From SAR92 bacterium BACL16 MAG-120619-bin48 (lineage in GTDB: Bacteria; Pseudomonadota; Gammaproteobacteria; Pseudomonadales; Porticoccaceae): 64,000 nt of DNA. Where the stretch lies: NCBI GenBank assembly GCA_001438605.1, contig LIDE01000018.1:1-64000 (forward strand). The letters are read 5' to 3'. Of this stretch, positions 3,690 to 20,319 are shown one piece after another. The position numbers and the translations under genes are program-made. The notes under the pieces are model-generated. The model saw only the letters and a list, made by a program, of their open reading frames with translations, was not told the DNA's origin and searched no databases. Numbering within the stretch: position 1 is the stretch's first letter; each line of letters begins with the position of its first letter.

Positions 3690-4946
3690 ATGCCTGTAAG
3701 AACTGTTATGCGCCTCTGGCCACTTTTTGCCGGTCTCGCCTTGATTGGCCTGGCTATTGGCGTACAGGGCAGCCTTCTCGGTATTCGAGCTGAACTCGAA
3801 GAATTTAATGATTACTTAATTGGCCTGTTGATGTCCTGCTATTACGCGGGTTTTCTGGCGGGATCGCGGCTTGCGCCAGGCATGATTGAGCGGGTTGGTC
3901 ATATTCGTATCTTTGCGGCACTGTCAGCTGTCGCCTCGGTCACTATTTTAATTCACTCGCTGTATGTCGAGCCTTGGGCGTGGGCGCTGATGCGCTTGTT
4001 CACCGGCTTTGCCTTTTCAACGATTTATGTCGTCTCTGAAAGTTGGCTGAGCCAAGCCTCCACCAATGAAAATCGCGGCCAAATATTGGCGATTTACACA
4101 GCCATTCTGCTCGCCGGCATCTGCGCGGGTCAGTTTATGTTGAAACTGGCCGATCCTATGGATTTCACCCTATTTATTCTTATCTCGGTGATGGTCAGCG
4201 TCGCTGCGGTACCGGTTCTGCTCTCTGTCATTACGACGCCGCCAGCAGAGACCACCGAGAGTGTGAGTATCCGCCATCTTTGGCACCGCGCACCGATGGG
4301 CGTGATCGGTATTGTTTTGTCGCAGTGGGTATCGAGCATCGTCTTTACCCTTGGCGCCGTGTACGCCACAAAGATCGGTTTCACGTTCCCTGAAGTAGCC
4401 AATTTTATGGGCTGCATGATGGCCGGCGGCATGATTTTCCCTTATTCCCTCGGAAAGCTCTCCGACACCATGGATCGTCGCTGGGTTATCGGATTTTCCA
4501 GTCTGGCTGCCATGGCGGTCGCGGTCGTGATTAGCTTTGAAACGGTCGCCTCGGCAAAACTGTATGTGCTTATTTTTCTGTTTGGTGGCTTTTCCCTGTC
4601 ACTTTACTCTCTGGTTGTCGCACTCACCAATGACCACCTTCGACCGAGGGAAATTGTGCCCGCCAGCGGGACCATTATTTTATTGGCTGGGCTAACATCG
4701 ATCAGCGGCCCAATTACCGGTGTTTTTTGGCTGCACACCTTTGGCTTACAATCGTTCTTTTTGCTGCTGGCGCTATCGCTACTGTTGCTTGCCATCATCA
4801 GTATTTGGCGGGTATTGACAGTTCCTGCACTGCCGAAAAAATACAAAGTTCAAAGTACATTGCAAGCGGCCACCGTACCGGTGGGTATCGTGCTGCATGC
4901 CGAGGGAGACACGGTGCAGAAAACCACAGAGCCTGACTCGAAATAA
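3690..4946 (+). CDS. MFS transporter, YcaD-like
   Basis: A 418-residue polytopic inner-membrane protein with about 12 hydrophobic helices. Helix 1 (LWPLFAGLALIGLAIGVQGSLLGI) and the MSCYYAGFLAGSR loop resemble the YcaD branch of the major facilitator superfamily. A central polar loop (about residues 185-205) separates the two six-helix halves. The C-terminal 40 residues are hydrophilic and cytoplasmic. No substrate is assigned for this branch. The preceding 192 bp separate it from the divergent DUF1415 gene and should contain both promoters, although no strong consensus stands out. Confidence 0.85.
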   Translation: MPVRTVMRLWPLFAGLALIGLAIGVQGSLLGIRAELEEFNDYLIGLLMSCYYAGFLAGSRLAPGMIERVGHIRIFAALSAVASVTILIHSLYVEPWAWALMRLFTGFAFSTIYVVSESWLSQASTNENRGQILAIYTAILLAGICAGQFMLKLADPMDFTLFILISVMVSVAAVPVLLSVITTPPAETTESVSIRHLWHRAPMGVIGIVLSQWVSSIVFTLGAVYATKIGFTFPEVANFMGCMMAGGMIFPYSLGKLSDTMDRRWVIGFSSLAAMAVAVVISFETVASAKLYVLIFLFGGFSLSLYSLVVALTNDHLRPREIVPASGTIILLAGLTSISGPITGVFWLHTFGLQSFFLLLALSLLLLAIISIWRVLTVPALPKKYKVQSTLQAATVPVGIVLHAEGDTVQKTTEPDSK

Positions 4947-9397: not shown

Positions 9398-10804
9398 ATG
9401 AAACGACTCTTGCCCGCCAGTCTCGCACTGGCAGTAGCGCTATGCATTACAGGCTGTGACAGCAACAAGCCAACGACTACTGGCCCGCTGCTACCCAACA
9501 AAAACCCCTTCCCATCCACTTACCAAATTCCGTCCGCAGCAGTTCTGGTGATCCAGAACGCGAACCTGCTTACAGGTGCGAATGAGCAACTCGACAGCAC
9601 GGATTTGATCGTTGAGAATGGCAAAATTACCGCCATCGGTGCAGATCTTGCCGTGCCTGAGAACGCGCAAGTAGTTGATGCCTCAGGCAAATGGTTAACC
9701 CCAGGTCTTATTGATGTGCACTCGCATATGGGTGTCTATCCAGCGCCGGAAACATCGAACCATTCGGACGGCAACGAAATGACTTCACCCGTCACCGCGC
9801 AGGTGTGGGCCGAACATTCCGTCTGGCCAGAAGATCCACAGTTTGAAAAAGCCCTTGCGGGCGGTGTCACAACCGTGCAAATTCTGCCTGGTTCCGGCAA
9901 TTTGATTGGCGGCCGCGGCGTGACCCTGAAAAACGTCCCTTCAATCACCGTTCAAGGCATGAAGTTCCCCGACGCACCCTACAGCCTGAAAATGGCGTGC
10001 GGCGAGAACCCCAAGCGTGTCTATGGCAGCAAAGGCATTCTTCCCTCCACACGCATGGGCAATATGGCCGGCTATCGCAGCGCTTGGATCGAAGCAAAGG
10101 CTTACAAAAAGACATGGGACGATTATGTTAGCGACTTTAACGCCGGGCTCGACGTTGACCCACCGCTGCGCGATCTGCGTCTAGAGACTCTGACTGGTGT
10201 GCTGGAGGGCGATATCCGCGTCCACAACCACTGCTATAAAGTTGATGAAATGGCACAGATGGTCGATATGGCAAAAGAGTTCGGCTACAGCATTGCTGCC
10301 TTCCATCACGCAGTCGAAGGCTACAAAGCTGCGCCAATGTTAGCCGCTGAAAATATCTGTGGTGTGATGTGGGCCGACTGGTGGGGTTTCAAGCAAGAAG
10401 CCTTCGATATGGTGCGAGAGAACCTTGCCTTGGTCGATCACGCGCAGGCCTGCGCGATTATTCACTCCGATGATCCCATTCAAGTACAGCGTTTGAACCA
10501 AGAAATTGCCAAAGCGATGAGTGCGGGCAACCGTATGGGGCTGAATATTAGTCATGCCAAAGCCATCGGCTGGGGCACGCTCAATGCAGCGAAATCGCTC
10601 GGCTTGGACGATCGTATTGGCTCCCTTGAAGTGGGAAAAAATGCCGACCTCGTACTGTGGTCAGGCGAACCATTAAGTGTTTACAGCCATGCCGAAAAAG
10701 TCTGGATCGACGGCGCGCTGCGCTTTGATCGCGCCGATGCATCGGTACAACCGACCAGTGATTTTAATCTTGGCATTTTGACTGAAGGGGAGGCCCGTCC
10801 ATGA
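9398..10804 (+). CDS. Amidohydrolase family lipoprotein with complete metal ligands
   Basis: A 468-residue imidazolonepropionase-like amidohydrolase. It has a lipoprotein signal with Cys20 in ITGC, a TPGLIDVHSH metal motif (His108, His110), further candidate ligands in VHNH (His278) and the HH pair at 303-304, and a HSDD segment with Asp358. The C-terminal small beta domain (VGKNADLVLWSGEP) is standard. Such enzymes hydrolyse amide or peptide bonds in small molecules, here in the periplasm. ATG 9398 is preferred over an upstream GTG-type extension because it opens the signal peptide and has an AAGG-like site before it. Its TGA overlaps the start of the next gene (ATGA). Confidence 0.88.
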   Translation: MKRLLPASLALAVALCITGCDSNKPTTTGPLLPNKNPFPSTYQIPSAAVLVIQNANLLTGANEQLDSTDLIVENGKITAIGADLAVPENAQVVDASGKWLTPGLIDVHSHMGVYPAPETSNHSDGNEMTSPVTAQVWAEHSVWPEDPQFEKALAGGVTTVQILPGSGNLIGGRGVTLKNVPSITVQGMKFPDAPYSLKMACGENPKRVYGSKGILPSTRMGNMAGYRSAWIEAKAYKKTWDDYVSDFNAGLDVDPPLRDLRLETLTGVLEGDIRVHNHCYKVDEMAQMVDMAKEFGYSIAAFHHAVEGYKAAPMLAAENICGVMWADWWGFKQEAFDMVRENLALVDHAQACAIIHSDDPIQVQRLNQEIAKAMSAGNRMGLNISHAKAIGWGTLNAAKSLGLDDRIGSLEVGKNADLVLWSGEPLSVYSHAEKVWIDGALRFDRADASVQPTSDFNLGILTEGEARP

Positions 10805-16865: not shown

Positions 16866-17348
16866 TTACTCAGCGATAACCTCGATTTCAATCACCTCTG
16901 ACAGCACGGGCGGATTGTGTGGCACGTGGGAATAATTACCCAACAGCAGCTGCAAGCGATGAACGCCGGGCGCTAATGTTAGCTGGGTTTCCGTTTGCGC
17001 TTTGCCGAAGTGAATAACCTGATCAGAGGCAGGTAAAGGCGCGTTCATGTCCGGCAACTGATCGAGATCAATCAACAGATGGTGGTGACCCGTGTTTGCG
17101 AGGTCTGTGCCCGCAGGGGCAACACCCATTCCTTCCAAACCAAACACCACTTTGACAGTACCCGATGTCAGCACCTGGCCATCAGACGGCTGAATAAAAT
17201 AGACCCGCGCATTGTCTGGCGCGGACGAGCGCGGCATACCGCCATGGTCGTGGGCTGCGACCTGACTGCTGGCCACAACAGCAAAGGCTAACCCAATGGC
17301 CATAGCAACACTGTTTTGACGGGTAAAAAAGCGACTTTTGTGCAGCAT
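16866..17348 (-). CDS. DUF4399 domain-containing exported protein
   Basis: A 160-residue periplasmic protein. A signal peptide (about residues 10-30, ending in SQVAAHD) is followed by HDHGGMPR and a beta-rich domain with the family signature NTGHHHLLIDLD and, near the end, a GVHRLQLLLGNYSHVPHNPP segment. The histidine clusters could bind a metal, but no function is established for DUF4399. ATG 17348 has AAAGGA 7-8 nt upstream; a longer reading to 17462 adds 38 residues without a signal-like profile and is rejected. It is divergent from the di-heme peroxidase gene with about 170 bp between, so the two may share control. Confidence 0.85.
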   Translation of the reverse strand: MLHKSRFFTRQNSVAMAIGLAFAVVASSQVAAHDHGGMPRSSAPDNARVYFIQPSDGQVLTSGTVKVVFGLEGMGVAPAGTDLANTGHHHLLIDLDQLPDMNAPLPASDQVIHFGKAQTETQLTLAPGVHRLQLLLGNYSHVPHNPPVLSEVIEIEVIAE

Positions 17349-17522
17349 TTTGTGAATCCTTTTTGGTTGTGTAAATCTGTGCTCAGGGACAATTAACACC
17401 TTCCCACTTATCCGACACCTTCGCCATGGAAGAGAGCAGCCATAGAGAAAAGCCTGTGCCATAATAGCCTAAGGCATTAGGGTTATACTAATCGCTGGCC
17501 GCCCTAATAAAAATAATAAAGC

Positions 17523-18806
17523 ATGGGTCTAACCATGAGTATTTCAGCTCTCGTTTCAGCCGTCAGAGATCGTTGGAGATGTCAATGGAGATGTCAATGG
17601 AGATGTCAATGGAGAGGCGCGCTCAGTCGTGTCGCCAGCACCGTCGCGCTCGTCGGCTGGGGGCTTCACGCCATCAGCAGTGAGACTGGAAGCCCAGTAG
17701 ATCAGTTTGTTCTCAATCAAGAATGCCCGCCCAGTTTCGCCCTTAATCAGCGCGGACAATGTATTTTGCATCACCGCTATCAGGCCTATGACTCCCTGCA
17801 AAACAGTGGTGTGGGCGGTCTGAAAACAGCACTGCCCGAGGCGCGCGACGGATTTAGCCCCAAACAGATCGATTTGGGGCGGCTACTCTTTTTTGACCCC
17901 ATTTTGTCTGCGGATAAAACCATGGCCTGCGCCAGCTGCCACAATCCAGCCCGCGGATTTAGCGATGGCCTTGGGCGCAGTGTCGGATTGGGGGGTAGCC
18001 CGCTCACTCGCTCTGCACCCAGCCTTTGGAACAGTGCATTTTTAAATGTCTTTTTTTGGGATGCCCGCGCCCACAACCTTGAAGAACAAGCGGTCGGTCC
18101 GCTATTTTCAGCAGTTGAAATGGGTAATACACCGGCGCAATTGATTCGCGACCTCAACGCCACTGACGCCTACCCCAAACTGTTTAAACAAGCATTTCCC
18201 AAAAGTGAAAACGCACTGGAGGTGAACAGTATCATCACCGCCTTAAGTGCCTTTCAGAGTTCGCTGATATCCCTCAATAGTCGCTACGATCAATACGCTC
18301 TCGGTTATCACAACGCCTTGAGCGCCAACGAAATTGCAGGACTCAACATCTTTCGCTCGTTTGTCGGGCGCTGCTCGCAGTGCCATACACCACCGCTCTT
18401 TACCAATCAGCAAATCGCTGTGATCGGCGTGCCTGAGCCCGCGGGCATGCCCCGCGATATCGGCGCCGAGTCAACCTTTGGCTCACCCATCCTGCGCGCC
18501 GGCTTCAAGGTGCCAACCCTGCGCAATATTGCGCAAACAGCTCCCTATATGCACTCAGGCACATTCTCTACCCTGAAGGAAGTCGCACAGTTCTACAACG
18601 GCGGCCGCGGTCACGCGGTGCCAGAGGGCGAGGATCTTCTGCTGCATTGGCATATGTCTGAACCCGACCTTACCGACACCGAACTGGATCGTTTGGTGGA
18701 CTTTTTACACAGCCTCAGCGATGAGCAATTTATGCCCACGATACCCGCCAGCGTCCCCTCTGGGCTAAATCCAATCCAATCGGAGAATCTCCATGCACAA
18801 GAGTAA
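17523..18806 (+). CDS. Exported di-heme cytochrome c peroxidase/MauG family protein
   Basis: A 427-residue protein with two c-type heme sites, CASCH at about 136-140 and CSQCH at about 284-288, in the arrangement of bacterial cytochrome c peroxidase/MauG proteins. Conserved surroundings are LGRLLFFDPILS before heme 1 and RNIAQTAPYMHSGTFSTLKEVAQFYNGG near the C-terminus, with a likely distal ligand. A CPP...RGQC cysteine pair (68, 80) precedes the first domain. The N-terminus is odd: three copies of Arg-Cys-Gln-Trp from a 12-bp repeat, then one hydrophobic helix; the start (ATG 17523 or 17535) is uncertain. The next gene overlaps it by 14 bp. It may reduce peroxide or oxidise a protein or organic substrate. 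Confidence 0.88.
   Translation: MGLTMSISALVSAVRDRWRCQWRCQWRCQWRGALSRVASTVALVGWGLHAISSETGSPVDQFVLNQECPPSFALNQRGQCILHHRYQAYDSLQNSGVGGLKTALPEARDGFSPKQIDLGRLLFFDPILSADKTMACASCHNPARGFSDGLGRSVGLGGSPLTRSAPSLWNSAFLNVFFWDARAHNLEEQAVGPLFSAVEMGNTPAQLIRDLNATDAYPKLFKQAFPKSENALEVNSIITALSAFQSSLISLNSRYDQYALGYHNALSANEIAGLNIFRSFVGRCSQCHTPPLFTNQQIAVIGVPEPAGMPRDIGAESTFGSPILRAGFKVPTLRNIAQTAPYMHSGTFSTLKEVAQFYNGGRGHAVPEGEDLLLHWHMSEPDLTDTELDRLVDFLHSLSDEQFMPTIPASVPSGLNPIQSENLHAQE
17577..17612 (+). repeat. Three perfect 12-bp tandem repeats inside the peroxidase gene
   Basis: The unit AGATGTCAATGG occurs at 17577-17588, 17589-17600 and 17601-17612 with no mismatch. In frame it encodes Arg-Cys-Gln-Trp three times near the N-terminus of the di-heme protein. 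A perfect multiple-of-three repeat can change copy number without a frameshift. Confidence 0.95.
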
Positions 18807-20319
18807 ACTTTGGCTTATCACAATCGGCGTCGTCGCCTTTGCGCTCGGCTGGTACGGTGGAATCAACGGCAACGAGCCCGTTATGACCAGCAGTGTTGGC
18901 GGCGCCAGCTACGGCGGAGGCTATGGCGCAGAGGCTGGTGAGTCGAGTAAAAATGCGGTTAAGGCGCGCACCAAGCAGGGCGAGACCCTCGTGGTGAATC
19001 CCGGCGAGTCGATCCAAGCGGCTGTTGAGAGAGCGCAGCCCGGAGACAGCATTCGTGTGATGCCCGGAGTCTATTCTGAAACTGTTTATATCGACAAAGA
19101 TGATATTCACCTGAGTGGCTTTATTGCTGCAGGTGAACGAGCCACTCTCGATGGACAGGGCAAACTCAACGACGCCATCCTCTACTCGGGGAACAATATT
19201 GTTATCGAAAACTTCAAAATTGTTCACTACAAGGGCAATGGCATAATGAGCCAAGCTGGCAATAATTTTGAGATCCGCAACAACATCATTATTGATACCG
19301 GTATTTACGGTATTTTCCCACAGCTCGGAACCAACGGGTTAATCGAGCACAACACCGTTTCCGGAATCGCCGATGCCGCCATCTATGTAGGTATGAGTGA
19401 CAATATTCACGTCGCCCACAACGAGGTTTTCGACAGCGTCGCCGGTATCGAAATTGAGAACAGTCGCCATGCGATTGTTGAGAACAATTACACCCACCAC
19501 AATACCGGCGGCATTTTGACCTTTATCACCCCGGGACTACCGATCAAAACCACCTACGATGTGATTATTCGCAACAACTTTATTCTCGACAACAACACCC
19601 CCAACTTTGGCGCACCGGGGTCAACCGTCGCCGGTATTCCCGCCGGTACGGGCATTTTAGTGATGGCTGCTGATGATGTAATTATTGAAGGCAACTTTAT
19701 TAGCAACCATAAAACCGCCGGTATTTTGATTAACGATCACGCCAACGCCGCAGGTTTAACCCTCGACCCCGGCGCCGACCCCAATCCCGATCGCATGATG
19801 ATTCTCGATAATGTAATGAGCAATAACGGCTACGACACCATCGCAGAAGTCAAAGCGTTTGCCCTCACCGAACTGCACACGGGTAATATCGATATCTTCC
19901 ATATCGGCCCAAGCCAAGACAGCTGCATTATTAACCGGCATCGTTACAACACCGTGGGCATCGGCAGCTACAGCGAATGCGGGTTTAACAATACCGACAA
20001 CATTGATACCTACTTGCTCGCAGGCGGTGCAGAGCCCCGAGTGATTCAGCCATCCGAGCGCGGCGAAATTGCCTATTTGGGGGTCTGCACTGGCTGTCAT
20101 TCCTACCGTGGCGTCTTAATCGGCCCAGCGGTGGAAGAAATACAGGCCAGATATGCGGGTAATCCAGAGGGCATTGTCAGCTATATTAATGCGCCCTTTA
20201 AAATTCGCCCCGAGTATCCCGAAATGCCTGCGCAAAATTACCTTGATGCGGAAACACAAATGGCCGTGGCAGACTATATGCTCAACATCAAGCCCCACGC
20301 CCAAACAGAGGCAGAGTGA
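18793..20319 (+). CDS. Parallel beta-helix protein fused to a cytochrome c domain
   Basis: A 508-residue exported protein. Residues 7-22 form a signal or anchor helix, 35-50 are a Gly/Ser/Tyr-rich linker, and about 65-375 are right-handed parallel beta-helix coils with repeated NNI/ENN/NNF-type turns, as in NosD and carbohydrate-active beta-helices. The C-terminus (about 420-508) is a class I cytochrome c: CTGCH at 432-436 and a likely axial methionine in YPEMPAQ (Met478). The gene overlaps the di-heme peroxidase gene by 14 bp and has GGAG before its ATG, so both are made together. The beta-helix probably binds a polymer or surface while the heme exchanges electrons with the peroxidase; this is inference. 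Confidence 0.87.
   Translation: MHKSKLWLITIGVVAFALGWYGGINGNEPVMTSSVGGASYGGGYGAEAGESSKNAVKARTKQGETLVVNPGESIQAAVERAQPGDSIRVMPGVYSETVYIDKDDIHLSGFIAAGERATLDGQGKLNDAILYSGNNIVIENFKIVHYKGNGIMSQAGNNFEIRNNIIIDTGIYGIFPQLGTNGLIEHNTVSGIADAAIYVGMSDNIHVAHNEVFDSVAGIEIENSRHAIVENNYTHHNTGGILTFITPGLPIKTTYDVIIRNNFILDNNTPNFGAPGSTVAGIPAGTGILVMAADDVIIEGNFISNHKTAGILINDHANAAGLTLDPGADPNPDRMMILDNVMSNNGYDTIAEVKAFALTELHTGNIDIFHIGPSQDSCIINRHRYNTVGIGSYSECGFNNTDNIDTYLLAGGAEPRVIQPSERGEIAYLGVCTGCHSYRGVLIGPAVEEIQARYAGNPEGIVSYINAPFKIRPEYPEMPAQNYLDAETQMAVADYMLNIKPHAQTEAE

Follow-up and report, generated by a model that had tools for sequence, protein, structure and literature searches.

A conserved gene pair for a di-heme CCP_MauG protein and a beta-helix protein fused to cytochrome c in a SAR92 bacterium

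Introduction

What does a di-heme protein of the CCP_MauG superfamily do beside a beta-helix protein that carries a cytochrome c domain of its own, and are the two a true unit? This question is raised by a locus of the SAR92 bacterium BACL16 MAG-120619-bin48, found in a stretch of 64,000 nt (GCA_001438605.1, contig LIDE01000018.1, positions 1-64,000, forward strand) that is called the window here.

Results

The locus and its two overlapping genes

The initial annotation had described an overlapping pair of genes for a di-heme MauG/CCP-type protein and a beta-helix-cytochrome c fusion; the open reading frames (Table 1) and the domain profiles both agree with this description. An identical overlap is found in several relatives, and short gaps or overlaps in others, when open reading frames are taken from their first start. 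Promoter-like and terminator-like sites were near shuffled expectation. The divergent neighbour encodes a DUF4399 protein (PF14347, 119.1 bits in the Pfam profile search), for which the inner ATG at 17348 is the more likely start, judging by eye from the signal-peptide-like beginning and the AAGGA box that go with it.

Table 1. Features of the locus, in window coordinates.
Feature	Positions	Strand	Length	Evidence
Di-heme CCP_MauG gene	17523..18806	+	427 aa	PF03150, alignments, counts in 49 homologues
Beta-helix/cytochrome fusion gene	18793..20319	+	508 aa	TIGR03805, AlphaFold, fold matches, homologue counts
Overlap of the two genes	18793..18806	+	14 nt	ORF coordinates
DUF4399 gene, neighbour outside the unit	16866..17348 (likelier start); longest frame 16866-17462	-		PF14347

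The second protein joins a beta-helix to a cytochrome c

The fusion protein consists of an N-terminal hydrophobic helix (residues 3-23), a right-handed beta-helix (about 65-345) and a C-terminal domain (about 420-500). TIGR03805, whose cut-off is 141.5 bits, matches residues 74-349 with 195.0 bits, and with 196.3 bits when the genome was searched. Going by its sequence, the C-terminal domain is a class I cytochrome c, with CTGCH at 432-436 and Met478, and the solved structures closest to it in sequence include cytochromes of the c551/c552 type. PF00034 reaches 17.8 bits in the window protein, below the Pfam cut-off of 21.3, and 22.9 bits, above it, in a relative (L117). The CxxCH motif is present in all 49 aligned homologues and Met478 in 48, the remaining one being gapped; the cytochrome domain, whose absence from close homologues had been raised as a sign of an accidental module, thus persists across these homologues.

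The AlphaFold model of this protein (mean pLDDT 70.1) was taken for fold only. Its matches include an alginate epimerase/lyase (8ja4, Z 29.6), the RbmB lyase (Z 29.4), AlgE6 and AlgE4 (Z about 29) and NosD (7o0y, Z 26.4, 3.0 angstrom over 266 residues). The beta-helix is similar to alginate epimerases, to polysaccharide lyases and to NosD, and the Foldseek and VIA-align matches point to no single function.

The first protein has MauG-type residues at its heme sites

PF03150 (CCP_MauG) matches the first protein with 174.7 bits, against a gathering score of 25.6, and a genome search found no other protein of this family. Both CxxCH motifs (residues 136-140 and 284-288) are present in 49/49 homologues, as is Trp179, which occupies the inter-heme Trp position. 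In the alignment to MauG and to the 6e1c chains, Tyr358 falls on the axial Tyr294 of MauG, and this place is a Tyr in every homologue. The pocket residues are kept almost throughout (Q189 in 49/49, P193 in 47/49, E199 in 48/49 with one X), and the family has residues of its own, namely C68/C80 and H375-W376-H377. MauG uses Trp199 for hole hopping; the homologue alignment has no Trp at this place, where FVAR precedes the second CxxCH. Q103 and W199 are MauG numbers, as are W93, P107, E113 and Y294, the last four given in the reference list of PMC6405878. The AlphaFold model (mean pLDDT 47.3) was too poor for use.

With respect to the NCBIfam equivalogs, the protein scores 189.8 bits with TIGR03791 (MauG), below the cut-off of 443.85, and 220.8 bits with TIGR04039 (MbnH), its best match, again below the cut-off of 362.85. 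In the same genome, neither the MauG substrate (PF02975, methylamine dehydrogenase light chain) nor an MbnP-type partner (TIGR04052) gave a match, in searches to which no control genome responded either. The name peroxidase given to this protein is uncertain, as the axial place has the MauG-type Tyr, although BthA shows that peroxidase activity is compatible with such a Tyr (PMC6405878).

The two genes recur together

Among 143 relatives, 40 have both genes, three the beta-helix gene alone and one the di-heme gene alone, and in all four single-gene cases the gene lies at a contig end. The di-heme gene stands immediately 5' of the beta-helix gene in each of the 37 related loci from named genomes. 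ORF prediction yielded out-of-frame ORFs in a number of GC-rich loci (observed in L114, L116, L138, L140, L142 and L143), and L114 and L116 were judged by protein searches. Carried by marine bacteria of the SAR92 group, the pair also occurs in other proteobacteria; it was found in Paraglaciecola, Aestuariibacter and Wenzhouxiangellaceae, and in a single genome that belongs to another class. Named carriers include Paraglaciecola hydrolytica S66 and Aestuariibacter halophilus JC2043, and strain HTCC2207 is a further culturable one. It has been lost, with a remnant remaining, from two genomes of the window's genus and is therefore dispensable. These results show that the pair, far from being confined to one strain, is genuinely conserved as a unit, fused cytochrome included; its recurrence across species and the heme motif in 49/49 homologues rule out a chance fusion or a strain-specific artefact.

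Outside the window's genus, the pair is often part of a larger gene cluster that also encodes a di-heme cytochrome, an AraC regulator and a TonB-dependent receptor. Of the 19 clustered loci there, 11 have the di-heme cytochrome gene immediately upstream, and in 11 of 15 genomes searched the best match to this cytochrome falls in the locus. A homologue of the receptor is in the locus in eight of the 15, and is the genome's best in six. Among solved structures, the linked receptor is nearest to pesticin, colicin I and siderophore receptors, all of them weak matches and mostly in the plug region. Three searched genomes of the window's own genus have no close match to the receptor or to the extra cytochrome, and a link to uptake is therefore no general feature of the pair.

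The DUF4399 gene was also considered as a partner, and its distribution speaks against this. It is present in 74 of the 143 relatives, 37 of which do not have the pair; in the 37 pair-bearing genomes that have it, it adjoins the pair in eight, lies 7.5-11 kb away in eight and elsewhere in 21, and it persists where the pair is lost. Counted over the 37 loci from named genomes, it adjoins the pair in five (L032, L033, L036, L037, L038), lies some 6-8 kb downstream in five (L034, L035, L041, L044, L045) and was not found in the other 27 within the fetched DNA, some stretches of which are short. We thus reject it as a partner. In one distant case (L077/L127) a DUF4399 gene stands beside a canonical TIGR03805/TIGR03806 pair, which looks like coincidence.

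Discussion

What the pair may do

The best reading of these data, which we hold to be possible and somewhat short of probable, is a periplasmic and probably peroxide-driven redox pair that acts on a ligand bound to the beta-helix. The first protein would be a MauG/MbnH-like di-heme enzyme, in which peroxide would react at the N-terminal heme, whose pocket retains the MauG Gln, Pro and Glu, and the oxidising power would be shared, via Trp179, with a Tyr/His-ligated C-terminal heme. The beta-helix protein, bearing its own c-type heme and, in many members, an N-terminal helix that may anchor it in the inner membrane, would dock to this enzyme, and electrons would move between the di-heme enzyme, the fused heme and the putative ligand. 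In the fuller clusters found elsewhere, the di-heme cytochrome could connect the pair to the respiratory chain and the TonB-dependent receptor could import the ligand; the window's genus would have the two-gene core only. In favour of this reading are the strict pairing, the MauG-type Tyr and pocket residues, the heme motif kept in the partner and the clusters with cytochrome and receptor; against it stand the lack of close receptor and cytochrome matches in the window's genus, the loss of the pair from two genomes and the missing Trp at the place of MauG Trp199. The initial annotation had proposed an extracytoplasmic oxidation system in which the beta-helix binds a polymer or surface: a role in oxidation or electron transfer agrees with the heme residues and is kept here, the polymer or surface would be a putative ligand, and the DUF4399 protein is no part of the unit.

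It is also conceivable, if rather unlikely, that the di-heme enzyme oxidises the beta-helix protein itself post-translationally, at Tyr, Met or Cys, to make a redox cofactor or a metal site, the beta-helix protein then being the enzyme and its electrons leaving via the fused cytochrome. The models are MauG with methylamine dehydrogenase and the proposed action of CorB on CorA, here with a non-Trp target. The MauG-type Tyr and the pocket residues would fit such a role, as would the one-to-one pairing, and the residues that are invariant in the fused branch and not in 16 canonical TIGR03805 proteins, which include Y94, Y99, M152, M201, M291, C378 and C396, offer candidate targets. Precedents are CorA/CorB and MopE/SACCP, in each of which a modified protein is paired with a di-heme one (PMC3912023), and mtoX with mauG, a further such pair (PMC5739008). 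Against it, both the MauG and the MbnH cut-offs are missed, and the beta-helix protein has no conserved Trp past residue 60, with 34 of 49 proteins having no Trp there at all; on these grounds of conservation we reject a Trp-based modification, TTQ and kynurenine products are unlikely, and any protein oxidation here would be new to the family.

Equally unlikely, in our estimate, is membrane-linked removal of periplasmic peroxide, in which the fused c551-like cytochrome would pass electrons to the di-heme protein for the reduction of H2O2 to water and the beta-helix would merely position the donor. The likeness of the cytochrome domain to c551/c552, the retention of E199 and Q189 at catalytic-pocket places, the finding of no other CCP_MauG protein in the genome and the peroxide reduction by Tyr-ligated BthA (PMC6405878) are all consistent with it. 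However, a Tyr replaces the Met that, by the same source, classical bacterial cytochrome c peroxidases have on their second (C-terminal, electron-entry) heme, and an electron donor needs neither a strongly conserved beta-helix of 280 residues nor the TonB receptor linked to it elsewhere.

We consider it improbable that the pair handles copper or another metal, with a NosD-like beta-helix and an MbnH- or CorB-like di-heme protein. NosD models match below cut-off and the NosD structure 7o0y matches the fold model, MbnH fits the di-heme protein best among the NCBIfam profiles and some taxa have a linked TonB receptor, but the NosD profile TIGR04247 gives 61.5 bits against a cut-off of 300, TIGR04039 also falls short, other beta-helix enzymes outscore NosD against the model, and the copper sites of MopE/CorA use a Trp-derived kynurenine (PMC3912023), for which no conserved Trp is available here. 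A beta-helix that acts as a polysaccharide lyase, epimerase or binding domain, with the heme parts oxidising the glycan or its product, is more improbable still: its top fold matches (8ja4, AlgE6, AlgE4, RbmB) and the invariant basic residues K102, K147, R225, K252 and R260, which could bind an acidic polymer, have to be set against a common fold with many listed matches close in Z, no carbohydrate-enzyme Pfam family matching the 508-aa protein, and no carbohydrate-enzyme gene recognised in the inspected clusters, where a minority of neighbours was scanned.

To our knowledge, few partners of MauG-class enzymes have been described. With its strict one-to-one pairing, heme in both members and occurrence in a marine clade and in named strains, the pair is a compact, testable system that could address both these partners and the role of TIGR03805. 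In the boldest form, which we regard as quite unlikely, a MauG-class enzyme would generate a cofactor from Tyr, Met or Cys, distinct from TTQ and kynurenine, in the heme-bearing beta-helix and so give a periplasmic dehydrogenase of a new type, with a TonB-imported ligand and electrons leaving via the fused cytochrome and the di-heme shuttle.

Comparison with known systems

In open-licence PubMed Central papers we recognised no description of a MauG-type protein paired with a beta-helix, and literature searches found no described role for TIGR03805 proteins. We know of no fused or dedicated beta-helix partner for BthA or the classical peroxidases, which have the superfamily in common with the window di-heme protein and many solved members of which match it by sequence; the classical enzymes differ from the window family, where the MauG-aligned place is Tyr, not Met, in 49/49 proteins. 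NosD is likewise a right-handed beta-helix of a periplasmic system, but the window protein is under the NosD cut-off, is fused to a cytochrome domain and is paired with a di-heme protein.

MbnH is a di-heme protein with a dedicated exported partner, MbnP, and an arrangement of this kind, as in CorB/CorA (MopE/SACCP), is shared by the window pair, whose di-heme protein matches 6e1c; here the partner is a heme-bearing beta-helix and not a kynurenine copper protein, and the MbnH cut-off is missed. With MauG and methylamine dehydrogenase, the common features are the di-heme fold family, the axial-place Tyr and the pocket residues, whereas the window protein is under the MauG cut-off and its partner is without a conserved Trp.

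A close parallel is that of the TIGR03805/TIGR03806 pairs, which have the same beta-helix family and are likewise a two-gene, heme-containing unit. The core residues D194, Y198, E220, E222 and N223 are common to the window beta-helix and canonical TIGR03805 proteins, although the window protein scores 195 bits where two canonical members score 386-403. The statement in the initial annotation that TIGR03805 occurs in gene pairs was right as to family and pairing habit, but the usual partner is not of MauG type: it is TIGR03806, the SO2930 family of di-heme c-type cytochromes, a profile passed by all five canonical partners scanned and not matched by the window di-heme protein at E 1 or better. 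Here its place is taken by a CCP_MauG protein, with a cytochrome on the beta-helix itself, and a tree built from 19 fused and 16 canonical TIGR03805 proteins puts the fused ones on a separate branch.

Results

Domains of the gene pair

The three reading frames described in the initial annotation, and the 14-nt overlap of the di-heme and beta-helix genes, were borne out. The di-heme protein matched CCP_MauG (174.7 bits), and its top NCBIfam matches were MbnH (220.8) and MauG (189.8), both far below their cut-offs. The partner is a TIGR03805 beta-helix protein (195.0 bits against a cut-off of 141.5) with a C-terminal cytochrome domain closest in sequence to c551/c552; an AlphaFold model built from 20 sequences placed a helix at residues 3-23, strands mainly at 65-343 and the helical cytochrome at about 420-498. 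Within the di-heme gene, 3.5 perfect tandem copies of a 12-bp unit give rise to a recurring RCQW-type stretch close to the protein's N-terminus, in a region that relatives do not conserve.

Coordinates of features in the window and in compared loci
Feature	Sequence	Positions	Strand
DUF4399 gene	window	16866-17462	-
Di-heme CCP_MauG gene	window	17523-18806	+
12-bp tandem repeat within di-heme gene	window	17574-17615	
Beta-helix/cytochrome gene	window	18793-20319	+
Beta-helix gene remnant	L125 (genome G022)	9799-10272	
Beta-helix gene remnant	L126 (genome G041)	about 9760-9900	
Region with DUF4399 gene near canonical TIGR03805/TIGR03806 pair	L127	7670-11122	
AraC-type regulator directly before canonical TIGR03805/SO2930 pair	L132	8153-9271	
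HupE/UreJ and PPIC-type isomerase genes directly before canonical TIGR03805/SO2930 pair	L134	6857-8694	

Conservation and spread

The relatives are mostly Porticoccaceae/SAR92, and loci from named genomes also include Wenzhouxiangellaceae (L060), Paraglaciecola (L061) and Aestuariibacter (L063); in all 37 named-genome loci the di-heme gene lies directly upstream of the beta-helix gene. Among 143 relatives, the beta-helix protein was matched in 67 at E 0.001, and 43 were counted as the fused type by a cut that we set at >330 bits. The remaining 24, which were left out, comprised short tails, weaker matches and TIGR03805 proteins of other kinds. A match to the di-heme protein at E 1e-60 was present in 41. 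The beta-helix gene stood alone in three relatives and the di-heme gene in one, and all four exceptions are genes cut by contig ends: two begin at base 1 (G009) and base 3 (G031) of their contigs, in G131 the contig end falls inside the gene, and in G001 the di-heme gene is cut at base 4698. The fused type was rarer in wider samples, with 3 of 369 genomes across the class (L069-L071) besides the window's own, and 6 of 398 across the phylum (L117-L122; one, G810, outside the class), each with the di-heme gene. The pair proposed as a module is thus not confined to one strain, since 40 of the 143 relatives carry both genes, as do the class and phylum carriers, and the cytochrome is kept in homologues of the second gene (CxxCH in 49/49).

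The initial annotation had also noted a divergent DUF4399 gene, which is to be dropped from the module, as an intact DUF4399 gene stays where the pair is lost. The pair is missing from two genomes in the window's genus, which retain beside that gene only a short remnant, the last part of the beta-helix gene with, by eye, scraps of inner segments; these remnants are gene loss in progress, and the pair is therefore dispensable. DUF4399 also lies near a canonical pair in L127, from a genome about 1.3 Mb in size; in G061, which has a close relative of this canonical pair, DUF4399 is on a different contig.

Conserved residues and predicted chemistry

In the di-heme protein, W179, Q189, P193 and E199 correspond by spacing to MauG W93, Q103, P107 and E113. 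W179 and Q189 are conserved in all 49 homologues, P193 in 47 and E199 in 48, the remaining one being an X; the homologues are mostly SAR92 and so not 49 independent cases. Features that mark this family are C68/C80 and H375-W376-H377, present in all 49, and H364, present in 47. Tyr358, a Tyr in every homologue, aligned with position 294 of 373-residue MauG chains, the known Tyr ligand; in classical peroxidases this heme has Met (PMC6405878). Tyr358 thus favours MauG-like chemistry without proving it, because a Tyr-ligated heme does not preclude peroxidase activity in BthA (PMC6405878).

The evidence best supports a predicted dedicated periplasmic redox pair, in which peroxide would be the likely oxidant and the beta-helix may hold the ligand. 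Simple peroxide removal is an alternative of low probability, and gains a little from the genome having yielded no CCP_MauG protein other than the di-heme one.

In the partner, Met478 is conserved in 48 of 49 proteins (one gapped). D194, Y198, E220, E222 and N223 belong to an invariant core common to fused and 16 canonical TIGR03805 proteins; Y94, Y99, M152, M201, M291, C378 and C396 are invariant in the fused branch only. Modification of a protein at Tyr, Met or Cys is, like simple peroxide removal, an alternative of low probability. The sole Trp-rich column falls in the membrane helix, at position 20 (31/49); past residue 60 no column is rich in Trp, and 34 of the 49 proteins lack any Trp there, which argues that TTQ- or kynurenine-type products are not general to the partner. 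Copper handling and polysaccharide cleavage by the pair are less likely than peroxide removal or protein modification. In a FastTree analysis over 280 columns, with 19 selected fused proteins and 16 canonical ones, all 19 fused proteins grouped together on a stem of 1.35, with modest support (0.755).

A larger cluster outside the genus

Neighbour clustering in 19 distant loci, some from related genomes and so not independent, found a di-heme cytochrome of about 210 residues directly upstream of the pair in 11; nine loci had a TonB-dependent receptor and eight an AraC-type regulator. Because TonB receptors are abundant, specificity was checked in 18 genomes, 15 of them from outside the window's genus and three from within it. 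With a Paraglaciecola receptor as query, a homologue lay within the pair's locus in 8 of the 15 and was the genome's best match in 6; in G803 and G095 another copy outscored it. The best cytochrome match lay in the pair's locus in 11 of the 15, including locus cytochromes in G095 and G137 that clustering had missed. G099, from another family, had neither. The three genomes of the window's genus gave no receptor match at E 1e-40, other receptor-like candidates being present, and for the cytochrome no more than a weak match away from the pair (G039); the window therefore holds a two-gene core.

Canonical TIGR03805 relatives

Cytochrome-less TIGR03805 proteins adjoin TIGR03806 (SO2930 family) di-heme proteins, and all five separate partners scanned scored above the TIGR03806 cut-off. 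Among 20 further loci, an SO2930-like gene was picked in 15, a fused frame in one (L130) and none in four, in part because of out-of-frame ORFs. One frame in L080 matched TIGR03805 (239.8 bits) and TIGR03806 (167.7 bits, below cut-off in a sequence cut by the locus end), and L079 resembles it by eye; the canonical pair is thus also fused, the two families sharing one frame in L079, L080 and L130. In G110 and G117 the fused type coexists with another TIGR03805-like protein. The L132 regulator is 34% identical to the AraC-type regulator of MauG-type clusters, and TonB receptor-like genes lie near canonical pairs in L141, L142 and L145; these neighbours hint at a theme common to both clusters.

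Discussion

The pair brings known families together in a conserved combination, and no description of a MauG-class/beta-helix combination was found in the open-licence PubMed Central literature searched. The canonical TIGR03805 system joins a beta-helix to a di-heme cytochrome, whereas in the window a MauG-class protein takes the cytochrome's place; the beta-helix of this branch has its own heme, unlike the canonical one, which is without a cytochrome.
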